Below are positions 5,350-15,449 of a DNA stretch of 64,000 nucleotides, one piece after another (the stretch's first letter is position 1; each line of letters starts with the position of its first letter). This stretch comes from Rhodococcus wratislaviensis. Its GTDB lineage: Bacteria > Actinomycetota > Actinomycetes > Mycobacteriales > Mycobacteriaceae. Position numbers and translations under genes: made by a program. A model generated the notes under the pieces. That model ran no database searches. It worked only from the letters and a program-made list of their open reading frames with translations, and was not told the origin of the DNA. The stretch covers positions 620,001-684,000 of the forward strand of contig NZ_UAUI01000011.1 of the NCBI RefSeq assembly GCF_900455735.1. The letters run 5' to 3'.

Positions 5350-6171
5350 TCAGGTGATGCGGTCGGGGTGGGTGTAGATGTTCATGGTGGTGCCGCGGAG
5401 GAACCCGATGAGGGTGAGCCCGGTGTCGTGGGCGAGGTCGATCGCCAGCGAGGAGGGCGCGGACACGGCGGCGAGGACGGGGATGCCGGCCATCACCGCC
5501 TTCTGCGCCAGCTCGAACGACGCCCGGCCGGACACGAGCAGGACGCTGCCGCGCAGCGGGACCCGGTTCTGTTCGGTGGCCCAGCCGATCAGCTTGTCGA
5601 CGGCGTTGTGCCGCCCCACGTCCTCCTTGATCGCGAGCAGTTCCCCGGTCCGGGTGAACAATCCGGCCGCGTGCAGACCGCCGGTGGTCTCGAAGACCCG
5701 TTGCGCGGCCCGCAATCGGTCGGGCAGCTCCGCGATCGTCGCGGCCGGCACCCGCACCGTGTCGGTGGCCGGCGAATGCTTCGTGCGTTGCCGGATCGCG
5801 TCGAGCGACGCCTTCCCGCACACCCCGCACGAGGAGGTGGTGTAGAAGTTGCGTTCGATACCGGTGTCGGGCAGGAACACCCCGGGTGCGAGGTCGACGT
5901 CGAGGACGTTGTAGGTGTTGGCACCGTGCTCGTCGACGCTGTTGCAGTAGCGGATCGACGCGATGTCCGCGCGGTCGGCGATGATGCCCTCGGTCAGCAG
6001 GAAACCCTGCGCCAGTTCGACATCGGAGCCGGGGGTGCGCATGGTGACCGCCAGTGGTGTCCCGTTCACCCGGATCTCGAGCGGCTCCTCCACCACCACG
6101 GTGTCGGGGCGGGTGGACTGCCGGGTGTCGGTGATCCGGGTGACCGGGGTCCGGGTGGTCACACGCCCCAT
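5350..6171 (-). CDS. fdhD: FdhD, formate dehydrogenase sulfurtransferase
   Basis: 273 residues from the ATG at 6169-6171. FdhD moves sulfur from a cysteine desulfurase to the molybdenum cofactor of formate dehydrogenases. The catalytic Cys pair is seen in [10 protein letters not shown], with the family segments [25 protein letters not shown] and [15 protein letters not shown]. The start overlaps the stop of the upstream molybdoenzyme gene (TGATG), so the maturation factor is co-translated with its presumed target. A longer open frame runs upstream but lacks homology. Confidence 0.93.
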
Positions 6172-8477
6172 CACAGACGCCGTTCGAGACGGATCGTGAT
6201 CGCCTTCGACACCGGGGTGTTCGACTTGCGGGCCACGTGATCGAGCGGGATCAGTGGATTCGTCTCCGGGTAGTAGGCGGCGACGTTCCCCCGCGGCGTG
6301 GGGTACGGCACCAACCGGAAGTCGTCGGCGCGGCGCTCCTGCACCGTCCCGTCCGGGGCCTCCCATTCGGAGATCAGGTCCACCCGGTCCCCGTCGGTGT
6401 ACCCGAGTGCGGCGATGTCGTCGGGGGCGATGAACAGCACCCGCCGTCCGCCCTTGACACCGCGATAGCGGTCGTCGAGACCGTAGATGGTGGTGTTGTA
6501 CTGATCGTGCGAGCGCATCGTCTGCAACATCAACCGGCCCTCGGGTACCGGCAGCCAGGACAGCTCGTTGACCGTGAAATTGGCCTTCCCCGTGTCCGTC
6601 ACGAACCGGCGCTCGTCCCGGGGTGGGTGCGGCAGCCCGAACCCGTCCGGCCCGCGGACCTTGCGGTTGAAGTCCTCGAACCCGGGGATCACCCGGGCGA
6701 TGGAATCGCGGATGCGGTCGTAGTCGGCGGTGAACTCCCGCCACGGCACCGAATGGTCGGGACCGAACAGCGCCTGCGCGATCCCGCACACGATCGCGAT
6801 CTCACTACGCAACTGGTCGCCGGCCGGCTTCAGGCTGCCGCGGGACAGGTGCACCATCGACATCGAGTCCTCGACCGTGACCTGCTGTTTCTTACCGTTC
6901 TGGACGTCCTTGTCGGTGCGGCCCAACGAGGGCAGGATCAGCGCGGTCCGCCCGGTGACGAGGTGGGAGCGGTTCAGTTTCGTCGACACCTGCACCGTCA
7001 GCGCACACCCCCGCAGCGCGGCCTCGGTGGTCTCGGTGTCCGGCGTCGCCGAGACGAAGTTGCCGCCCATCCCGACGAACACCGACGCCTTCCCGTCCCG
7101 CATCGCCCGGATCGAGTCGACCGCGTCCAGGCCGTGCTCCCGCGGCGAGCGGATGCCGAATTCGGCGTCCAACGCGGCGAGGAACGACTCGGGCATCTTC
7201 TCCCAGATCCCCATCGTCCGGTCGCCCTGGACGTTCGAGTGCCCGCGGACCGGGCACACCCCGGCCCCGGGTTTGCCGATCATCCCCTGCAACAGCAGCA
7301 GGTTCACCGCGTCCTGGATGGTCGCGACCCCGTGCGTCTGCTGGGTCAACCCCATCGCCCAGCAGATGATGGTCTTCTTCGAGGCGATCAACGCGTTCGC
7401 GGTGGCCTGGATCTGTTCGAGCGTCAGCCCGGTCGCCCGGACCACCGTGCCCAGATCGACCTGCCGCAGATGCGCCGCGCACTCCTCGAAGCCCGCGGTG
7501 TGCCGGTCGATGAACTCCCGGTCCAGCACCGTCCCGGGATTGCGGTCCTCCGCCTCGAGCAGCAACCGGCCCAGCCCCTGGAACAGGGCCTGGTCGCCGC
7601 CGATCCGGATCTGCAGGAACTCGTCCGCGATCTGCACACCGTCGCCGACCACGCCGTGCACCTTCTGCGGGTCCTTGAACCGCATCAGCCCGGCCTCCGG
7701 CAGCGGGTTGATCGCGATCACCTTCGCCCCGTTGCCCTTCGCCTTCTCCAGGGTCGAGAGCATCCGCGGGTGGTTGGTGCCCGGGTTCTGCCCGGCGATC
7801 AGGATCAGGTCGGCGTTCTCGAGGTCGGGAACCGACACCGACCCCTTCCCGATCCCGATCGTCTCCACCAGCGCACTGCCGGACGATTCGTGGCACATGT
7901 TCGAGCAGTCCGGCAGGTTGTTCGTCCCGAACGCCCGGATCATCAACTGGTATACGAACGCCGCCTCGTTCGACGTGCGCCCGGACGTGTAGAACACCGC
8001 CTCGTGCGGCGACGCCAACGCCCGCAACTCGCCGGCGATCATCGCGAACGCCGCGTCCCAGCCGATCGGCTCGTAATGCGACGATCCCGGCAACAACACC
8101 ATCGGATGCGTCAGCCGGCCCTGCTGCCCCAACCAGAACTCGGTACGACCCAGCAGATCCGACACCGAATGCGCGGCGAAGAACTCCGGGCCGACCGTGC
8201 GGGTTGTCGCCTCCTCCGCCACCGCCTTCGCCCCGTTCTCACAGAACTCCGCATGCTTGCGGTGCCCCGGAGTCTCCGGCCACGCACACCCCGGACAGTC
8301 GAACCCCTCCCGCTGGTTCAACTTCATCAACGTCCGGGCCGTGCGCACCGGGCCCATCTGTTCGATCCCACGACGCAACGACACCAACACCGCAGGAACA
8401 CCTGCCGCATAGGATTTCTCGTGCGTGACGACGACATCGTCCTCGTCGAAGGTGTACCTGTCGGTGGTGTCGGTCAT
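6171..8477 (-). CDS. FdhF/YdeP-family molybdopterin oxidoreductase (formate dehydrogenase-like)
   Basis: 768 residues from the ATG at 8475-8477. It matches the single-subunit FdhF/YdeP-type molybdopterin oxidoreductases: an N-terminal Cys-containing [22 protein letters not shown] segment, [15 protein letters not shown] near the Mo site, [15 protein letters not shown], and a C-terminal molydopterin dinucleotide-binding domain. With FdhD encoded next to it and an upstream mycothiol-formaldehyde pathway, oxidation of formate to CO2 is the likely reaction. It is cytoplasmic, with no Tat signal. The electron acceptor is not evident. Confidence 0.85.
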
Positions 8478-8481
8478 GGAG

Positions 8482-9114
8482 TCAGTTTCCTCGTGCAATC
8501 CATTCGGCGAGGTGCGGGGCCTCGGTGCCGATCGTGGTTCCGTCACCGTGACCGGTGTGGACGAGCGTGTCCTCGGGAAGAGCGAACAGCCGGTCGCGGA
8601 TCGACCCGATGATGGTCGGGAAATCCGAGTACGAACGGCCCGTGGCGCCGGGGCCACCCGAGAACAGGGTGTCGCCGGAGAACAGCGCCCCGGCCTCGGG
8701 CAGGTACAGGCACACCGACCCCGGCGAGTGGCCCGGTGAGTGGATCACCTGGAGCTCGGTGCCCGCGATGGCGATCCGCTGCTCGTCCTCGAGATTCCAG
8801 TACTTCGAGTCGGGGTGGCTCATCTTCCACAGCACGTCGTCGCCCGGGTGGAGCAGCACCGGTGCATGCAGACGCTCAGCGAGTTCGGGGGCGACGGTGA
8901 CGTGGTCGTTGTGACCGTGCGTGCAGATCACGGCGTTCACGTGCCGGTCCCCCACCGCGTCGATGATCGGCTGCGCGGCGTGGGCGGCGTCGACGATCAC
9001 GACGTCGGTGTCGTCACCGATCAGCCAGATGTTGTTGTCGACGTTCCACTCTCCGCCGTCGAGGGCGAAGGTTCCCTCGGTGACGACCCGCTCGATCCGC
9101 AGCTGCCCGCTCAC
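8482..9114 (-). CDS. Metallo-beta-lactamase-fold hydrolase, probable S-formylmycothiol hydrolase
   Basis: 210 residues with the MBL-fold metal motif THGHNDHV, a second His in HSPGHSPGS, the bridging Asp in FSGDTLF and a C-terminal HTGHGDGT. It overlaps the stop of the upstream mycothiol-dependent dehydrogenase by 4 bp (ATGA). In mycobacteria an MBL protein also follows mscR. The inferred reaction is hydrolysis of S-formylmycothiol to formate and mycothiol, linking MscR to the formate dehydrogenase below. The assignment rests on context and fold rather than a specific motif. Confidence 0.8.
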
Positions 9115-10196
9115 AGGACGACCACCGAACGCAGCACCTCGCCGGCGTGCATGCTGTGGAACGCCGCTTCCACCTCGTCGATCTTGATGCGTTCGGTGAC
9201 GAACTTCTCCAGCGGCAGCCGGCCCTGCTGGTACAGGTCGACGAGCATCGGGAAGTCACGCTCGGGCAGGCAGTCGCCGTACCACGACGACTTCAGGGAT
9301 CCGCCGCGGGAGAAGAAGTCGATCAGCGGCATCTCGAGGGTCATGTCGGGGGTCGGGACACCGACCAGCACGACGGTGCCGGCGAGGTCGCGGGCGTAGA
9401 ACGCCTGCTTCCACGTCTCCGGGCGGCCGACCGCATCGATCACGACGTCGGCGCCGAAACCGCCGGTGAGTTCCTGTACGGCCTCGACGGCGTCCACCTG
9501 GCCGCCGTTGATCGTGTGCGTCGCGCCCAGGTCCTTCGCCCATTCGAGTTTCTTGTCGTCCCGGTCGATCGCGATGATCTTCACGGCGCCCGCGAGGCGG
9601 GCGCCCATGATCGCGGCGTCGCCGACACCACCGCAGCCGATGACGGCGACGGTGTCTCCGCGGGAGACGTTGCCGGTGTTCACGGCGGCACCGAGGCCGG
9701 CCATCACGCCGCAGCCGAGCAGCCCGACGACTGCCGGGTCCGCGGAGGCATCCACCTTGGTGCACTGCCCGGCATGGACGAGCGTCTTGTCGGCGAACGC
9801 GCCGATCCCCAGCGCGGGCGTGAGTTCGGTGCCGTCCTCGAGCGTCATCTTCTGCGCAGCGTTGTGCGTGTCGAAGCAGTACTGCGGGCGGCCGCGCTTA
9901 CAGGCGCGGCACTGACCGCAGACGGCGCGCCAGTTCAGGACGACGAAGTCGCCGACCGCCACAGAGGTGACGCCCTCGCCGACACTCTCGACGATGCCGG
10001 AAGCCTCGTGGCCGAGCAGGAACGGGAACTCGTCGTTGATCCCGCCGTCGCGGTAGGTGAGGTCCGTGTGGCACACACCGCATGCCGCGATGTCGACTAC
10101 CACCTCTCCGGGACCGGGGTCCGGAATGTTGACGGTCGCGATCTCGACGGGGGCACCCTTGGAGCGGGCGATGACGCCTCGTACCTGCTGCGGCAT
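9111..10196 (-). CDS. mscR: S-(hydroxymethyl)mycothiol dehydrogenase / S-nitrosomycothiol reductase
   Basis: 361 residues when started at the ATG 10194-10196, which has AAGGA at ideal spacing; an ATG at 10205 has its AAGGA too close. Features are the catalytic-zinc [20 protein letters not shown], the structural-zinc Cys cluster ([15 protein letters not shown]) and the NAD-binding [10 protein letters not shown]. It is a zinc alcohol dehydrogenase of the MscR type that oxidises the formaldehyde-mycothiol adduct with NAD and can reduce S-nitrosomycothiol. It is first in the four-gene detoxification operon and divergent from the lyase gene. Confidence 0.92.
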
Positions 10197-10379
10197 TGGA
10201 CTCATTCCTTCGGTCGATCAGTCATAGCGGGATCGATGCATGGCCATATATGCACCTCTCCCGAGACCCTACGTTCCCGAAGATCACGGAGGGACTGATC
10301 GAAGTGAGAGGTTGACCTAGCCGGAATGCCAGCCCCTCGCTGCGGTATCGCGACAGAGGTCATGACAGGAAACTGACGG

Positions 10380-10452: not shown

Positions 10453-11949
10453 ATGACCCGGAGAGATTCCAGCTCGACCGAGGAACCGCACCCGCCCCTT
10501 CCGGTGGTACTCGACGGTGCCCAGCTCACCGTCGATCAGCTCACGGCGCTCGCCCGGGAGCCCGTCGTGGTCGAACCCGACCCCGCAGCGCTCGACCACG
10601 CACGCCGTTCGTGGGAGACCGCGGTGCGCATCGCCGAACGGCAGCCCATCTACGGACGCACCACGGGCGTCGGGGGCAACCGGGACACCTCCGTCTCCGA
10701 CGGTGTCGACCAGGACCTTCGACTTCTCCGCAGCCACGCCACGGGCTCGGGCCCCTCGCTGCCGGATCACGTCGTCCGAGCTGCCATGATCATTCGCGTC
10801 AACCAAATTCTCAACGGCGGATCCGGTCTGCACCCCGACATCGTGACCGCGTTGATCGATGCCGTCGCGGCGGACGAACAGCCCACCGTGCACGCTCGCG
10901 GGGCGATCGGCACCGGCGATCTCAGCGCGTTCTCCGAGATCGCGCTCGGGTTGATGGGCGAGGCACCGCTGCGGGACGGTCGGCTCGTCACCCGGTGGAC
11001 CGCACACCAGGGTGACGCACTCCCGCTGATCTCGACGAACGCGATGACGGTCGCGCTCGCGGCGACGGCCACCGACAGCGTGGCGAACTGGCTGGAGCAC
11101 TCACTGATCGTCGGCGTGCTGTCGCTGCTGGCGACGCGCAGTTCCGTCGAGCCGTTCGCGGCGCGGGTGCAGGCAGCCCGCAGGCACCTCGGTCAGGAGG
11201 AGGTGGCCGGCCGCGTCCGGGAACTCCTCGCGGGCCAGCACGTACAGGCTGCCCGCGTGCAGGATTCGTACGGATTCCGCGCCCTGCCGCAGATCCTCGG
11301 GGCGACCTGGCAGGCGCTGCAGAGGTTGCGGGGGACGCTCGCGATCGAGATGAACTCGTCCTCCGAGAACCCCCTCATCTCCGTCGAGGACGACGCCGTG
11401 TACCACAACGGGAACTTCCACGGAATGCCGATCGCCCTCGCGGTGGACGAGGCGAAACTCGCGCTGTCGAGCGCAGCGCTGTTGTCGCAGTGCAGGCTTG
11501 CCAATCTCTCGGATCCGGTGGTCACCGGTCTCCGGCCGTTCCTGGCCGACGGTCCGGCGGGCAGCAGCGGCACCATGCTGCTGGAGTACACGACGTCCGC
11601 GGCCATCGCCGAGATCCGGATGGCCGCGGCACCGGGGTCTCTCGGACACACCGTGATCTCCCGCGGAACCGAGGACCACGCGAGCTTCGCATCGCAGGCC
11701 GCCACTCAGCTCACCGACATCCTCGCCCAGTCTCGCATCGTGCTCGCGTGCGAACTGATCTCGGCGGTGCGCGCCCTCGGCCAGCAGAACCACGAACCCG
11801 ACACGAGCACCGAACTCGGCGCGTACCTGGACCGGGCGCGCAGGTGCCTGGACCCGCGGACGACCGACCGTCCTCTGAGCGACGACCTGAAAGCAGCGGT
11901 GAAGTTTCTGGAACAGATGCCGAATCCGGAGAAAGACGCAACTCGGTAA
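10453..11949 (+). CDS. Ammonia-lyase-superfamily enzyme lacking the MIO triad; candidate betaine (ergothionase-like) lyase
   Basis: 498 residues with nearly every hallmark of the HAL/PAL family: catalytic Tyr67 in IYGRTTGVG, NQILNGGSG, VQDSYGFRALPQILG, EMNSSSENPL, NGNFHGMP and GTEDHASFASQ. The Ala-Ser-Gly that cyclises to the MIO electrophile is replaced by Gly153-Thr154-Gly155 (RGAIGTGDLSAF), and the usual GASGDLAPL context is altered. Without MIO, removal of a primary amine is hard, but a quaternary trimethylammonium leaving group needs less activation. From memory, ergothionase is a HAL-fold enzyme described as working by acid/base catalysis. A betaine-type ABC importer follows. The substrate is unproven; another aromatic betaine or a different elimination is possible. 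Confidence 0.7.
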   Translation: MTRRDSSSTEEPHPPLPVVLDGAQLTVDQLTALAREPVVVEPDPAALDHARRSWETAVRIAERQPIYGRTTGVGGNRDTSVSDGVDQDLRLLRSHATGSGPSLPDHVVRAAMIIRVNQILNGGSGLHPDIVTALIDAVAADEQPTVHARGAIGTGDLSAFSEIALGLMGEAPLRDGRLVTRWTAHQGDALPLISTNAMTVALAATATDSVANWLEHSLIVGVLSLLATRSSVEPFAARVQAARRHLGQEEVAGRVRELLAGQHVQAARVQDSYGFRALPQILGATWQALQRLRGTLAIEMNSSSENPLISVEDDAVYHNGNFHGMPIALAVDEAKLALSSAALLSQCRLANLSDPVVTGLRPFLADGPAGSSGTMLLEYTTSAAIAEIRMAAAPGSLGHTVISRGTEDHASFASQAATQLTDILAQSRIVLACELISAVRALGQQNHEPDTSTELGAYLDRARRCLDPRTTDRPLSDDLKAAVKFLEQMPNPEKDATR

Positions 11950-12014
11950 AGCAGTCCCACGACACCGAACTTCCGAGTGTGTCACCACTCGGATTACACG
12001 AAAGTAGCTCGCGA

Positions 12015-13130
12015 ATGATCACATTCGACAAAGTCACCAAGGCGTACCCGGACGGCACGACAGCGGTGAACGAACTCGACCTCGAGTGCCCGAGCGGGAA
12101 GATCACCGCACTCGTCGGCCCGTCGGGGTGCGGCAAGACGACGTCGCTTCGCATGATCAACAGGCTGATCGAACCGACGTCCGGAACCATCTCCCTCGAC
12201 GGCGAATCCACGGCGGACATGGATCCGGCACTGTTGCGCAGGCGCATCGGATACGTCATCCAGCACGCCGGACTGTTCCCGCATCGCACCATCGTGGACA
12301 ACGTCGCGACGATGCCGAAATTGCTGGGAAAGACGAAGAAGGAAGCGCGAACCCGGGCGATGGAGCTGCTCGAGACGGTCGGTCTCGCGGCGAACTTCGC
12401 GGACCGGTACCCCTGGCAGCTCTCGGGTGGCCAGCAGCAGCGAGTGGGGGTCGCGCGCGCCCTCGCCGCGGACCCGGCCTTCATGCTGATGGACGAACCG
12501 TTCAGCGCTGTCGACCCGGTGGTCCGGAGCCAGCTCCAGGACGAATTCCTGAGGCTGCAGAAGGACATCGGCAAGACGATCATCATCGTAACGCACGACA
12601 TCGACGAGGCCCTCAAACTCGGCGACCAGGTCGTCGTGTTGCGGACCGGCGGAATCCTGGCGCAGGCGGCGACGCCGCTGGAGTTGCTGACCGAACCCGC
12701 CGACGAGTTCGTCGCCGACTTCGTCGGACGCGACCGCGGCTACCGTTCGCTGGGTTTCTCGAACCTCGGCGGCCGCGTGGAGACGGTTGCCGAACCCGTT
12801 GCCCGTCTCGGTGATTCGGCGTCCGACGCCCGCACTCGGACCACGGACGACTGGTTACTCGTCGTCGACTCGGCGAACAAGCCGATCGGCTGGGTGCAAC
12901 CGGCGAAGGTCGTCGACCGTATCCGCCCGGGCGACGTGAATCTCAGCGGGACGGTCGCCGATGCGCACGGGACGATGCGGGCGCTGCTCGACGCCGCCCT
13001 GTCCGCGCCCAGCAAGCGCGGTGTCGTCGTCGACGGCGACGGCGTGCTCGTGGGGACCGTGACGGCACACGCGGCGGTGGCGGCGATCGAGTCGGCGGAT
13101 CTCGTGGCCGCGGAGGCGATGGCCCGATGA
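12015..13130 (+). CDS. OpuCA/ProV-like ABC transporter ATPase
   Basis: 371 residues. The ATPase half has Walker A GPSGCGKTTS, signature LSGGQQQRVGVARAL, Walker B FMLMDEPFSAVD and a switch His in VTHDIDEA. After residue about 250 there is a CBS-like regulatory region, as in osmoprotectant (glycine betaine/choline/carnitine) importers. It drives uptake by the two following permeases. The ATG lies 65 bp after the lyase stop, and the stop overlaps the first permease start by 4 bp. It is probably in one operon with the lyase. Confidence 0.9.
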   Translation: MITFDKVTKAYPDGTTAVNELDLECPSGKITALVGPSGCGKTTSLRMINRLIEPTSGTISLDGESTADMDPALLRRRIGYVIQHAGLFPHRTIVDNVATMPKLLGKTKKEARTRAMELLETVGLAANFADRYPWQLSGGQQQRVGVARALAADPAFMLMDEPFSAVDPVVRSQLQDEFLRLQKDIGKTIIIVTHDIDEALKLGDQVVVLRTGGILAQAATPLELLTEPADEFVADFVGRDRGYRSLGFSNLGGRVETVAEPVARLGDSASDARTRTTDDWLLVVDSANKPIGWVQPAKVVDRIRPGDVNLSGTVADAHGTMRALLDAALSAPSKRGVVVDGDGVLVGTVTAHAAVAAIESADLVAAEAMAR

Positions 13131-13777
13131 ACATCGAATGGCTCGGCCGCCAGTCCGACCGCATCGCCGAACTGGTCGGCTGGCACATCCTGCTCTCGCT
13201 CGTGCCGCTCGTCGTCGGTGTGATCGTCGCGTTGCCGATCGGCTGGCTGGCGCATCGCAGTCGCCGGATCAACCCCTACGTGGTGGGGACCGCAGGCCTG
13301 CTCTACACGATCCCGTCGCTGGCGCTGTTCGTCCTGCTCCCGCCGATCCTCGGAACGAAGATCCTCGATCCGATGAACATCGTCGTCGCGCTGACGATCT
13401 ACACCGTCGCCCTGCTCGTCCGCGTCATCGCCGACGCCCTGGATTCGGTGCCGCAGGAGACGGTGCTCGCCGCCACGGCAATGGGCTACCGGCCGTACCA
13501 GACCCTGCTGAAAGTGCAGCTGCCGGTGGGTGTTCCCGTCATCTGCGCCGGACTGCGCGTCGCTGTCGTGTCGAACGTCAGCCTCGTTTCTCTCGCCGCG
13601 CTGCTCGGGATCCCGCAGATCGGTTCACTGTTCACCCAGGGCTTCCAGTTGCGTTTCTACACACCCATCATCACCGGTATCGCGCTGTGCCTGCTGCTGG
13701 CGCTGGTTCTCGACCTGCTCATCGTGCTCGCCAATCGGTTACTCACGCCGTGGACCCCGAAGGTGGTCGCATCATGA
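13127..13777 (+). CDS. OpuCB/ProW-like ABC permease
   Basis: 216 residues with about five to six membrane helices and the ABC permease coupling (EAA) loop TVLAATAMGYRPYQTLLKVQLPVGVPVI. It has the short length of OpuC-type osmoprotectant permeases. ATGA overlaps on both sides (13127-13130 and 13774-13777) show translational coupling. It should form the inner-membrane channel with the next permease for a quaternary-ammonium substrate. Confidence 0.88.
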   Translation: MNIEWLGRQSDRIAELVGWHILLSLVPLVVGVIVALPIGWLAHRSRRINPYVVGTAGLLYTIPSLALFVLLPPILGTKILDPMNIVVALTIYTVALLVRVIADALDSVPQETVLAATAMGYRPYQTLLKVQLPVGVPVICAGLRVAVVSNVSLVSLAALLGIPQIGSLFTQGFQLRFYTPIITGIALCLLLALVLDLLIVLANRLLTPWTPKVVAS

Positions 13778-14529
13778 TCGACTTTCTGCTCGACGGTGCT
13801 CATTGGACCGGGCCCGAGGGCATTCCCGCTCTCCTCCTGCAGCACCTGATGTACACGTTCCTCGCCCTGTTCGCGGCGGCGCTGATCGCGGTTCCGCTCG
13901 GTCTGTACATCGGGCACACCGGCCGCGGAGCGGTCGTCGTCGCGGGCCTGGCCAACTCACTGCGCGCCCTTCCGACGATCGGTTTGCTGATCCTGCTGGT
14001 GCTGGTCATCGCGCCGTCGTTCACGACCAAGCTGGCCTATCTGATTCCCAGCCTGATCGTGCTGGTGCTGCTGGCCATCCCGCCGATTCTCACCAACACG
14101 TACGCGGGCATTCGCTCGGTCGACCCGGCCGCCGTGGACGCTGCGCGGGGCATGGGGTTCCGGTCGATGCGCATCCTCACCGAGGTGGAGATGCCGTGCG
14201 CACTGCCGCTGATGCTGTCGGGTGTGCGCAGCGCCGTGCTGCAGATTGTCTCGACGGCGACCGTCGCCGCCTACATCTCGCTGGGCGGACTGGGACGTCT
14301 CCTCATCGACGGCAAGGCGCAGAGCGACTACGCGCAGATGGCCGCTGGAGCGGTCCTGGTGTCCCTCCTCGCGCTCGCATTCGACCTGGCGATCGGATTC
14401 CTCACGGTTCGGGTCGTCTCACCCGGTCTGACGCGACGCGTCCGGAGCGGCGCGAAGCAGCGATCCGGTGCCGACGACACCGCCGTCGCGGCCCGACCTA
14501 CATCCGCTCCCGAACCCTCGCTGATCTGA
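13774..14529 (+). CDS. OpuCD/ProW-like ABC permease
   Basis: 251 residues from the ATG at 13774, which overlaps the preceding stop by 4 bp. Five to six hydrophobic segments and an EAA loop (AVDAARGMGFRSMRILTEVEMPCALPLML) identify it as the second membrane subunit of the importer. A polar, Ala/Ser/Arg-rich tail of about 35 residues follows the last helix. It pairs with the 13127 permease, as OpuCB and OpuCD pair. Confidence 0.88.
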   Translation: MIDFLLDGAHWTGPEGIPALLLQHLMYTFLALFAAALIAVPLGLYIGHTGRGAVVVAGLANSLRALPTIGLLILLVLVIAPSFTTKLAYLIPSLIVLVLLAIPPILTNTYAGIRSVDPAAVDAARGMGFRSMRILTEVEMPCALPLMLSGVRSAVLQIVSTATVAAYISLGGLGRLLIDGKAQSDYAQMAAGAVLVSLLALAFDLAIGFLTVRVVSPGLTRRVRSGAKQRSGADDTAVAARPTSAPEPSLI

Positions 14530-14540
14530 AGGACATCATC

Positions 14541-15449
14541 ATGAAGAAGGCATTGATCGTCGCGCTGACCGGCGCCACCCTGATGTCGTTGACGGCATGC
14601 GGGATCGGCAAGGACCCGTTGGCGTCCGATGACGGCGGAAGCAGTGACGGCGCCATCGTCGTCGGCTCCGCGGATTTCCCCGAAAGCCAGCTGATCGCGA
14701 CGATCTACGCGGAGGCGCTGCGCGCGAACGGCATCGACGTCACCGAGAAGCTCAACATCGGAAGCCGGGAGGTGTATGTCCCGGCCATCCGGGACGGCTC
14801 CATCGACCTGCTGCCCGAATACTCGGGTGCGTTGCTCCAATATCTCGACAGCGCCACCACCGCGACCGCGTCGGACGAGGTGACCGCGGAGATCAAGGCC
14901 AAGCTGCCCGCCGGACTCGTCGCACTGGAACCGTCCCCCGCCGAGGACAAGGACGTTCTCGCGGTGCGGCAGGAGACCGCGGACGAGTACTCGCTGGAGA
15001 CGATCGAGGACCTCGTGCCCCACGCCGACGAGCTGACCCTCGGCGGCCCGCCCGAGTGGAAGACCCGGGAGAACGGCGTCGCAGGCCTGCGGGACAAGTA
15101 CGGCCTGACGTTCAAGGAGTTCCTGGCACTGGACGCGGGCGGCCCCCTCACGCTCAACGCCCTGCTCAGCGGTCAGATCGAAGTGGCGGACGTGTTCAGC
15201 ACCGACCCGGCGATGCGTTCGGAGAACCTCGTGGCGCTCGAGGACACCAAGCACCTGTTCCTGGCGGAGAACATCACCCCGATCATCAACGAGAACAAGG
15301 CAGGCGACGACGTCCGCGGCGTCCTGGCCGACGTGTCGGCCGCATTGACGACCGAGGATCTCATCGAGATGAATCAGCGGGTGGCCGACCTCGAGGACAT
15401 GGGCGACATCGCCCGGGAATGGCTGCAGGACAAGGGCCTGGCGTCCTGA
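14541..15449 (+). CDS. Betaine-type ABC substrate-binding lipoprotein
   Basis: 302 residues. The signal peptide ends in the lipobox LTAC, making Cys20 the lipidated residue, so it is anchored on the outer face of the membrane. The mature part has the OpuC/ProX fold pattern (VGSADFPESQLIATIYAEALRANG, then IRDGSIDLLPEYSGALLQYL). This fold binds trimethylammonium groups in an aromatic cage; EgtU-type members bind ergothioneine. The specific ligand cannot be read here, but the adjacent lyase suggests an aromatic betaine. The stop abuts the convergent deaminase stop without a gap. Confidence 0.88.
   Translation: MKKALIVALTGATLMSLTACGIGKDPLASDDGGSSDGAIVVGSADFPESQLIATIYAEALRANGIDVTEKLNIGSREVYVPAIRDGSIDLLPEYSGALLQYLDSATTATASDEVTAEIKAKLPAGLVALEPSPAEDKDVLAVRQETADEYSLETIEDLVPHADELTLGGPPEWKTRENGVAGLRDKYGLTFKEFLALDAGGPLTLNALLSGQIEVADVFSTDPAMRSENLVALEDTKHLFLAENITPIINENKAGDDVRGVLADVSAALTTEDLIEMNQRVADLEDMGDIAREWLQDKGLAS

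Follow-up and report, generated by a model that had tools for sequence, protein, structure and literature searches.

In the genome of Rhodococcus wratislaviensis, a gene for a protein of the histidine ammonia-lyase (HAL) fold stands directly before a complete ATP-binding cassette (ABC) importer of the OpuC/ProU class, in a stretch of 64,000 nucleotides (contig NZ_UAUI01000011.1, positions 620,001 to 684,000) that is here called the window. The protein lacks the motif from which HALs form the electrophilic group 4-methylideneimidazole-5-one (MIO), and the question raised by the locus is what such an enzyme would do beside such an importer. The original prediction, made from the sequence alone, was that the operon imports a histidine or aromatic betaine and eliminates trimethylamine from it, ergothioneine being the first-named substrate. 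Comparison across a family of related lyases points to a conserved and functionally coherent module with hercynine (Nalpha,Nalpha,Nalpha-trimethyl-L-histidine) as the best-supported substrate. On balance the operon probably serves the catabolism of a histidine betaine: imported hercynine would be split into urocanate and trimethylamine, and the urocanate passed to the histidine utilization (hut) pathway.

Loss of the MIO triad and retention of the HAL site

The window lyase passes the gathering score of PF00221 and belongs to the aromatic amino acid lyase superfamily. Where HAL reads GSVG-ASG-DL, the window protein reads GAIG-TG-DL, a one-residue deletion in which Gly153 aligns with the Gly preceding the MIO triad; because one residue is lost relative to HAL, MIO formation in the usual way is ruled out. 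The predicted loss of MIO is borne out in this way, though not as a replacement of Ala-Ser-Gly by Gly153-Thr154-Gly155, the alignment giving Thr154-Gly155 with one residue deleted. Family alignment columns (96 sequences) were mapped onto HAL by sequence alignment, and the missing residue is present in none of the 95 sequences that cover the motif. The substrate site, on the other hand, is conserved: the equivalents of HAL Tyr53, His83, Arg283 and Glu414 are kept in 94/94, 94/94, 96/96 and 93/93 of the sequences with a letter at the position, and the window protein retains these four together with the equivalents of Gln277, Tyr280 and Phe329. Two site positions differ, since HAL Asn195 is replaced by Ser in 95 of the 96 family sequences (Ser194 in the window protein) and Gln385 corresponds to Glu378 in the window protein. 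In a tree with ten further lyases, six of the MIO type and four without MIO, the family forms a monophyletic group (FastTree support 0.968; the ergothionase 6s7j was outside the tree set), and judged by alignment and tree the MIO-less motif marks an actinobacterial family.

HALs are the best sequence matches of the window lyase, which is nevertheless set apart from HutH by its shortened triad and the two exchanged residues, and by a score of 308.5 bits with TIGR01225 against a cut-off of 539.15. With ergothionase it shares a HAL fold without MIO, as described for that enzyme in the available part of PMC13405746. Structure alignments give 23-24% identity to the ergothionase of Treponema denticola (PDB 6s7j, 6s7q); HALs score higher by sequence, and 6s7j ranks 7th to 17th, or is absent, in the searches.

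The possibility that the lyase is simply the HutH of its genome was considered and rejected, as a separate HAL with a CSG motif is encoded on another contig (C15; 608 bits to PF00221). A second, HAL-range profile match (254-279 bits) was likewise found in 11 of 12 family-bearing genomes of one survey, its motif having been read for the window genome (L001) and for G041 (in locus L077; L numbers denote the loci compared), which argues in the same direction. The window genome has a third PF00221 gene at C23:41894-43102, a two-piece match (83 and 57 bits) within one frame of 531 amino acids. A second MIO-less type of PF00221 protein, with the motif AVGA-AGE or GSGA-AGE, is encoded in one stretch with hutU and a family lyase at L079:11358-12860 and L148:13173-14615 (both on the minus strand); in this type HAL His83 is replaced by Arg and Asn195 by Ala, and the L079 protein is 25% identical to the window lyase.

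Linkage to OpuC importers and to histidine catabolism

The importer, at 12015-15449, is complete for its class, and the open reading frames and the full transporter downstream of the lyase that had been read from the sequence are confirmed by Pfam matches. The same pairing of lyase and OpuC genes is seen in all eight Rhodococcus loci read (the window, L005, L006, L007, L008, L071, L082 and L083). The lyase of R. opacus is 97% identical to that of the window, and those of L008 and L071, whose flanking genes are unlike the window's, are 75% and 77% identical.

Neighbouring genes were compared across 95 family loci, one per stretch with the window included, and 20 loci of MIO-type HALs as controls. 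OpuC permease and ATPase genes both lie near the lyase in 47 of the 95 loci and in none of the 20 controls, one of which has a weak permease match without an ATPase; hutU, hutF or hutI is near the lyase in 25 of the 95 and, as expected for HutH, in 15 controls. The 95 loci vary in length from 3.9 to 25 kb and are related to one another; at 98% identity they fall into 91 clusters, four pairs being nearly identical. With clustering at 70% identity, OpuC genes occur in 29 of 50 clusters, hut genes in 13 and both in nine. The controls were picked by hand, some rows being passed over, from the HAL-range rows of the survey for which no locus had yet been taken; they have no family-range match and all read x-Ser-Gly. 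Genes were called with a purpose-made GC-position caller, and neighbours were counted on six-frame stretches with hidden Markov models of clusters built from the test loci, at score thresholds of our own setting. Cluster names derive from a few scored members: AllC from L152 and L139, HutF and HutI from L077 and L152 (HutI also from L071), and LacI from L017. These counts give comparative support to the core of the original prediction, namely that an MIO-less lyase supplied by an OpuC-type importer releases trimethylamine from a betaine of the histidine type; the support does not extend to ergothioneine.

The association with histidine catabolism is most explicit in L152 and L153, where hutH-hutU-allC-hutF-hutI adjoins the lyase and OpuC genes and the HutH is of the MIO type with a CSG motif; in L152, the one of the pair that was scored, the genes exceed the NCBIfam cut-offs for HutH, HutU, HutF, HutI and the allantoate-amidohydrolase model. 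L077 similarly combines a HutH with an ASG motif, OpuC, the lyase, an allC-like gene, hutU, hutF and hutI. A MIO-type HutH is encoded in the same stretch as a family lyase in five loci (L077, L138, L139, L152 and L153). In two Rhodococcus loci, L008 and L071, the lyase-OpuC unit adjoins an arginase-family gene, hutI and hutU. The HutU and HutI of the window genome are 80.6-88.7% identical to those of L008 and L071, and its arginase-family protein is 75% identical to that of L008.

Substrate and proposed pathway

Five complete urocanases encoded beside the lyases score as HutU (887-935 bits, cut-off 375) and fall below the cut-offs of 880 and 930 for the thio-variants, and a sixth, partial one (L010) also scores best as HutU. 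A urocanase-family match is present in 70 of 74 lyase-bearing genomes, and thiourocanate hydratase or thiohydantoin desulfurase (NF058530, NF058529) exceeds its curated cut-off in none of the 74, the window genome included; the top thiourocanate hydratase score among them is 680 bits, from the L077 gene, which is a HutU. Thiourocanate hydratase was also not found over cut-off in a sample of 396 genomes of the phylum. Ergothionase and a cluster on the Agrobacterium plasmid pAt15955 (L187) yield thio-urocanates, for whose further breakdown dedicated enzymes are required; the NCBIfam models of these enzymes separate cleanly from HutU, with the pAt15955 cluster as reference. Because the adjacent urocanases scored are HutU and the thio-companion genes do not exceed their cut-offs, urocanate is the likely product and hercynine the likely substrate. 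Ergothioneine is accordingly disfavoured; a better fit is hercynine, which the original prediction had mentioned by way of caution as a possible true substrate. Hypaphorine and other aromatic betaines agree less well with the retained HAL residues His83 and Glu414 and with the link to histidine catabolism.

From these data we infer the leaving group, the substrate, the direction of flux and a role for neighbouring formaldehyde genes as follows. A methylated histidine, in all likelihood hercynine, would be taken up by the OpuC-type importer, and from it the HAL-fold lyase would take the beta proton and expel the trimethylammonium group as trimethylamine. Trimethylamine leaves without MIO, whereas ammonia does not, and HAL activity drops by orders of magnitude when MIO is lost. 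HAL depends on the electrophilic MIO to activate a primary amine; with trimethylamine, in itself a good leaving group, MIO would be superfluous, and it would have been lost through a one-residue deletion. Urocanate would enter the ordinary hut pathway through HutU and HutI and then yield glutamate; hutU and hutI lie elsewhere in the window genome, but the two related Rhodococcus and several further actinobacteria have them beside the lyase-importer unit. Trimethylamine could be oxidised further, and its methyl groups may be handled by the divergent genes of formaldehyde and formate metabolism, the S-(hydroxymethyl)mycothiol dehydrogenase taking up formaldehyde from trimethylamine demethylation.

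MIO-less trimethylamine-lyase systems are already known, in ergothionase and in the pAt15955 cluster of the S-methylthiourocanate type, and the variant that turns hercynine into urocanate is probably new; no hercynine lyase is described in the titles and abstracts retrieved by a literature search, whose coverage left out most subscription journals. The pAt15955 cluster resembles the window operon in combining an MIO-less PF00221 lyase (GSVG-Y-LTH), a ProU betaine importer and a urocanase-family enzyme. Its lyase, however, belongs to a separate MIO-less lineage with a separate deletion, and its companions score as S-methylthiourocanate hydratase (975.8 bits, cut-off 880), S-methylthiohydantoin desulfurase (537.9, cut-off 450) and ErtE (576.1, cut-off 520), whereas the scored urocanases of the window family are HutU; no thio-variant urocanase, desulfurase or ErtE is among the scored window genes between 5350 and 15449. 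On a plasmid of Burkholderia pyrrocinia (L028:3572-9167), a gene that is annotated as hutH but encodes an MIO-less protein (GSVGYLTH) stands together with hutC and four genes for an ABC importer, a further candidate lyase-importer cluster.

The importer can be compared with the EgtU ergothioneine importers and the OpuC/ProX osmolyte importers, which are of the same ABC class and have homologous binding proteins. According to the available part of PMC9732360, EgtU has its permease fused to the binding domain and a Phe293 that is specific to EgtU, and Glu375 accounts in part for the preference of its binding domain, EgtUC, for ergothioneine over hercynine. The window importer has separate permease and binding-protein genes, Tyr at position 293, and Asp, Asp, Phe and Glu at the positions of EgtUC Asn339, Tyr341, Tyr419 and Tyr443, Glu375 and Arg379 being kept. 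Within the family, the L077 binding protein, whose gene is part of a hut operon, comes close to the canonical pocket for quaternary amines (PEYTG, FNNTYAI, WPFYQP and Phe at 419), which lends moderate support to a betaine substrate; the window pocket neither supports nor excludes one. Recognition of trimethylammonium groups by OpuC-type proteins is a weak argument for the window protein, which is related to EgtUC, ProX and OpuCC but has most of the cage replaced.

Several observations weigh against a hercynine-specific module. The aromatic cage expected for a quaternary ammonium group is largely absent from the window binding protein, acidic residues taking part of its place, and the same AEDKD pocket occurs in L180, a paralogue of the same genome that is unlinked to any lyase; as the pocket is shared in this way, the cage comparison does not decide the specificity of the binding protein. 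The retained Glu375 counts mildly against hercynine, though it too is present in L180. The AlphaFold2 model of the lyase (predicted local distance difference test, pLDDT, 83.5; predicted template modelling score 0.85) is poor where it matters most, with pLDDT below 50 in the loops 152-154, 364-366 and 399-408. The window genome has its only urocanase gene, together with hutI and the arginase-family gene, on a different contig, unlinked to the lyase. One EgtD-family gene is present in the window genome, and hercynine is in that case probably an intermediate of the organism's own ergothioneine synthesis, which the lyase would need to be restrained from draining; the group that contains Rhodococcus makes ergothioneine, according to the available part of PMC7653990. 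The OpuC contrast is strong but may be partly taxonomic, most of the control genomes belonging to orders different from those of the lyase loci. Among the 95 loci, ten have a major facilitator superfamily (MFS) transporter as neighbour, 18 lack OpuC permease, hut gene, MFS transporter and cupin alike, and 35 have a cysteine-dioxygenase-like cupin, found in none of the 20 controls, that hercynine catabolism leaves unexplained. The branch with the cupin and an amidohydrolase-like gene may have another substrate.

Three alternatives were weighed against hercynine catabolism. In the first, the importer takes up ergothioneine and the lyase, as an ergothionase of actinobacteria, splits it into thiourocanate and trimethylamine. 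Such a role would agree with the fold without MIO and the importer class; the urocanase scores and the 74 genomes speak against it, as do the Tyr at position 293, a profile of residues 360-425 that finds HALs and tyrosine ammonia-lyase but not ergothionase 6s7j at E <= 10, and the lack of a cupin gene beside the six Rhodococcus lyases examined, and it is considered improbable. Slightly less probable still is a lyase acting on another histidine derivative, such as S-methyl-ergothioneine, ergothioneine sulfonate or a ring-methylated histidine betaine, or on a non-imidazole aromatic betaine. Work on S-methyl-ergothioneine, and on ergothioneine sulfonate in Agrobacterium, has reportedly been published, and both the chemistry and the gene logic of the pAt15955 cluster fit this alternative; the hut linkage nevertheless indicates plain urocanate, and the best thiourocanate hydratase score in the 74 genomes (680 bits) compares with 725 for the Agrobacterium S-methyl variant, NF058531 and NF058532 not having been searched there. 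Least probable is an MIO-independent, degenerate or dead HAL beside an importer for an ordinary osmoprotectant, which would account for the HAL-like sequence, the nearby hut genes and the pocket shared with L180, but not for the invariant substrate site, the MIO-type HutH in the same stretch in five loci, the absence of the OpuC pair from the controls or the cost of MIO loss to a HAL.

Hercynine catabolism might also be one part of a wider scheme, which we put forward as a doubtful possibility: an actinobacterial MIO-free trimethylamine-lyase arose from HAL by a single codon deletion and acquired two outlets. One, as in the window, would lead from hercynine to urocanate and the hut pathway, a salvage loop for the ergothioneine precursor; the other, in the cupin/amidohydrolase-like branches, would be a route from ergothioneine, as yet undescribed, that loses the sulfur through oxygenation of the thiol and so forms urocanate without thiourocanate hydratase.

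Gene layout, related loci and significance

The locus lies on contig C20 of the 7.78-Mb genome and comprises five plus-strand genes between 10453 and 15449 (Table 1), separated by 247 bp from a divergent S-(hydroxymethyl)mycothiol dehydrogenase gene. The block divergent from the lyase, encoding FdhD, a formate-dehydrogenase-like protein, a metallo-beta-lactamase (MBL)-fold hydrolase and this formaldehyde dehydrogenase, is found in the window, L005, L006, L007, L082 and L083, and not in L008 or L071; because these two of the eight Rhodococcus loci lack it, it is treated as context.

Table 1. Features of the lyase-importer locus and its flank (window coordinates).
Feature	Position	Strand	Evidence
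HAL-fold lyase without MIO, predicted hercynine (Nalpha-trimethyl-L-histidine) trimethylamine-lyase, 498 aa	10453..11949	+	PF00221 (Lyase_aromatic) 361.4 bits, family alignments, AlphaFold2 model
Codons Gly150-Ala-Ile-Gly-Thr-Gly-Asp-Leu157, MIO triad reduced to Thr-Gly, one residue deleted	10900..10923	+	Alignments
OpuC/ProV-type ATPase	12015..13130	+	ABC_tran 123.1 bits; TIGR01186 proV 317.6 bits, slightly below cut-off 326.6
OpuC-type permease 1	13127..13777	+	BPD_transp_1 63.7 bits
OpuC-type permease 2	13774..14529	+	BPD_transp_1 71.2 bits
OpuAC-type substrate-binding protein	14541..15449	+	PF04069 (OpuAC) 166.1 bits; matches EgtUC, ProX and OpuCC chains
S-(hydroxymethyl)mycothiol dehydrogenase (context, not claimed as part)	9111..10205	-	TIGR03451 693.7 bits, cut-off 512.9
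MBL-fold hydrolase (context)	8482..9114	-	PF00753 97.2 bits
Molybdopterin oxidoreductase, formate-dehydrogenase-like (context)	6171..8477	-	PF00384 88.4 bits
FdhD (context)	5350..6171	-	PF02634 254.7 bits

Other neighbours recur across the family. The cupin and the amidohydrolase-like gene (e.g. at L110:4175-5562) travel with the lyase in 34-35 of the 95 loci; the latter occurs in 34, under a label taken from the L017 member alone (PF04909, 38.6 bits), those of L110, L139 and L030 matching no Pfam model. A LacI-type regulator is also present in 34. In loci lacking OpuC and hut genes, no informative shared neighbour was found among nine proteins scanned, seven of them from L023, L099, L100, L102 and L145. 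In L009 (7757-18379) and L014, both from Prescottella, the genes for the MIO-less lyase and an MFS transporter have a HalD-like 2-oxoglutarate/Fe(II) oxygenase gene in their vicinity, and in L009 this set of oxygenase, lyase and transporter occurs twice in succession. L023 (12189-15260), from a metagenome-assembled genome, encodes a protein of 1024 aa in which domains of a phosphotransferase (APH), an M23 peptidase and a class-III aminotransferase are fused; its gene follows an enoyl-CoA hydratase gene and the lyase.

If hercynine catabolism is the role of the module, a function would be assigned to a family whose members occur in 28 of 394 genomes sampled from the class and in 39 of 298 sampled from the order (the window genome counted in both). 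Since the family lacks MIO and the window lyase scores far under the HutH cut-off, the automatic label of histidine ammonia-lyase would be misleading. MIO would then have been lost in HAL-fold lyases by more than one route, through a one-residue deletion here and a different deletion in the Agrobacterium and Burkholderia proteins, and the family would allow a clean test of whether an enzyme can do without MIO once the leaving group is already good. For the biology of these bacteria, the module would add a missing step by which the carbon and nitrogen of hercynine are returned to the histidine pathway in an ergothioneine-making group, and its motif would serve as a sequence signature by which a possible soil source of trimethylamine could be recognised.

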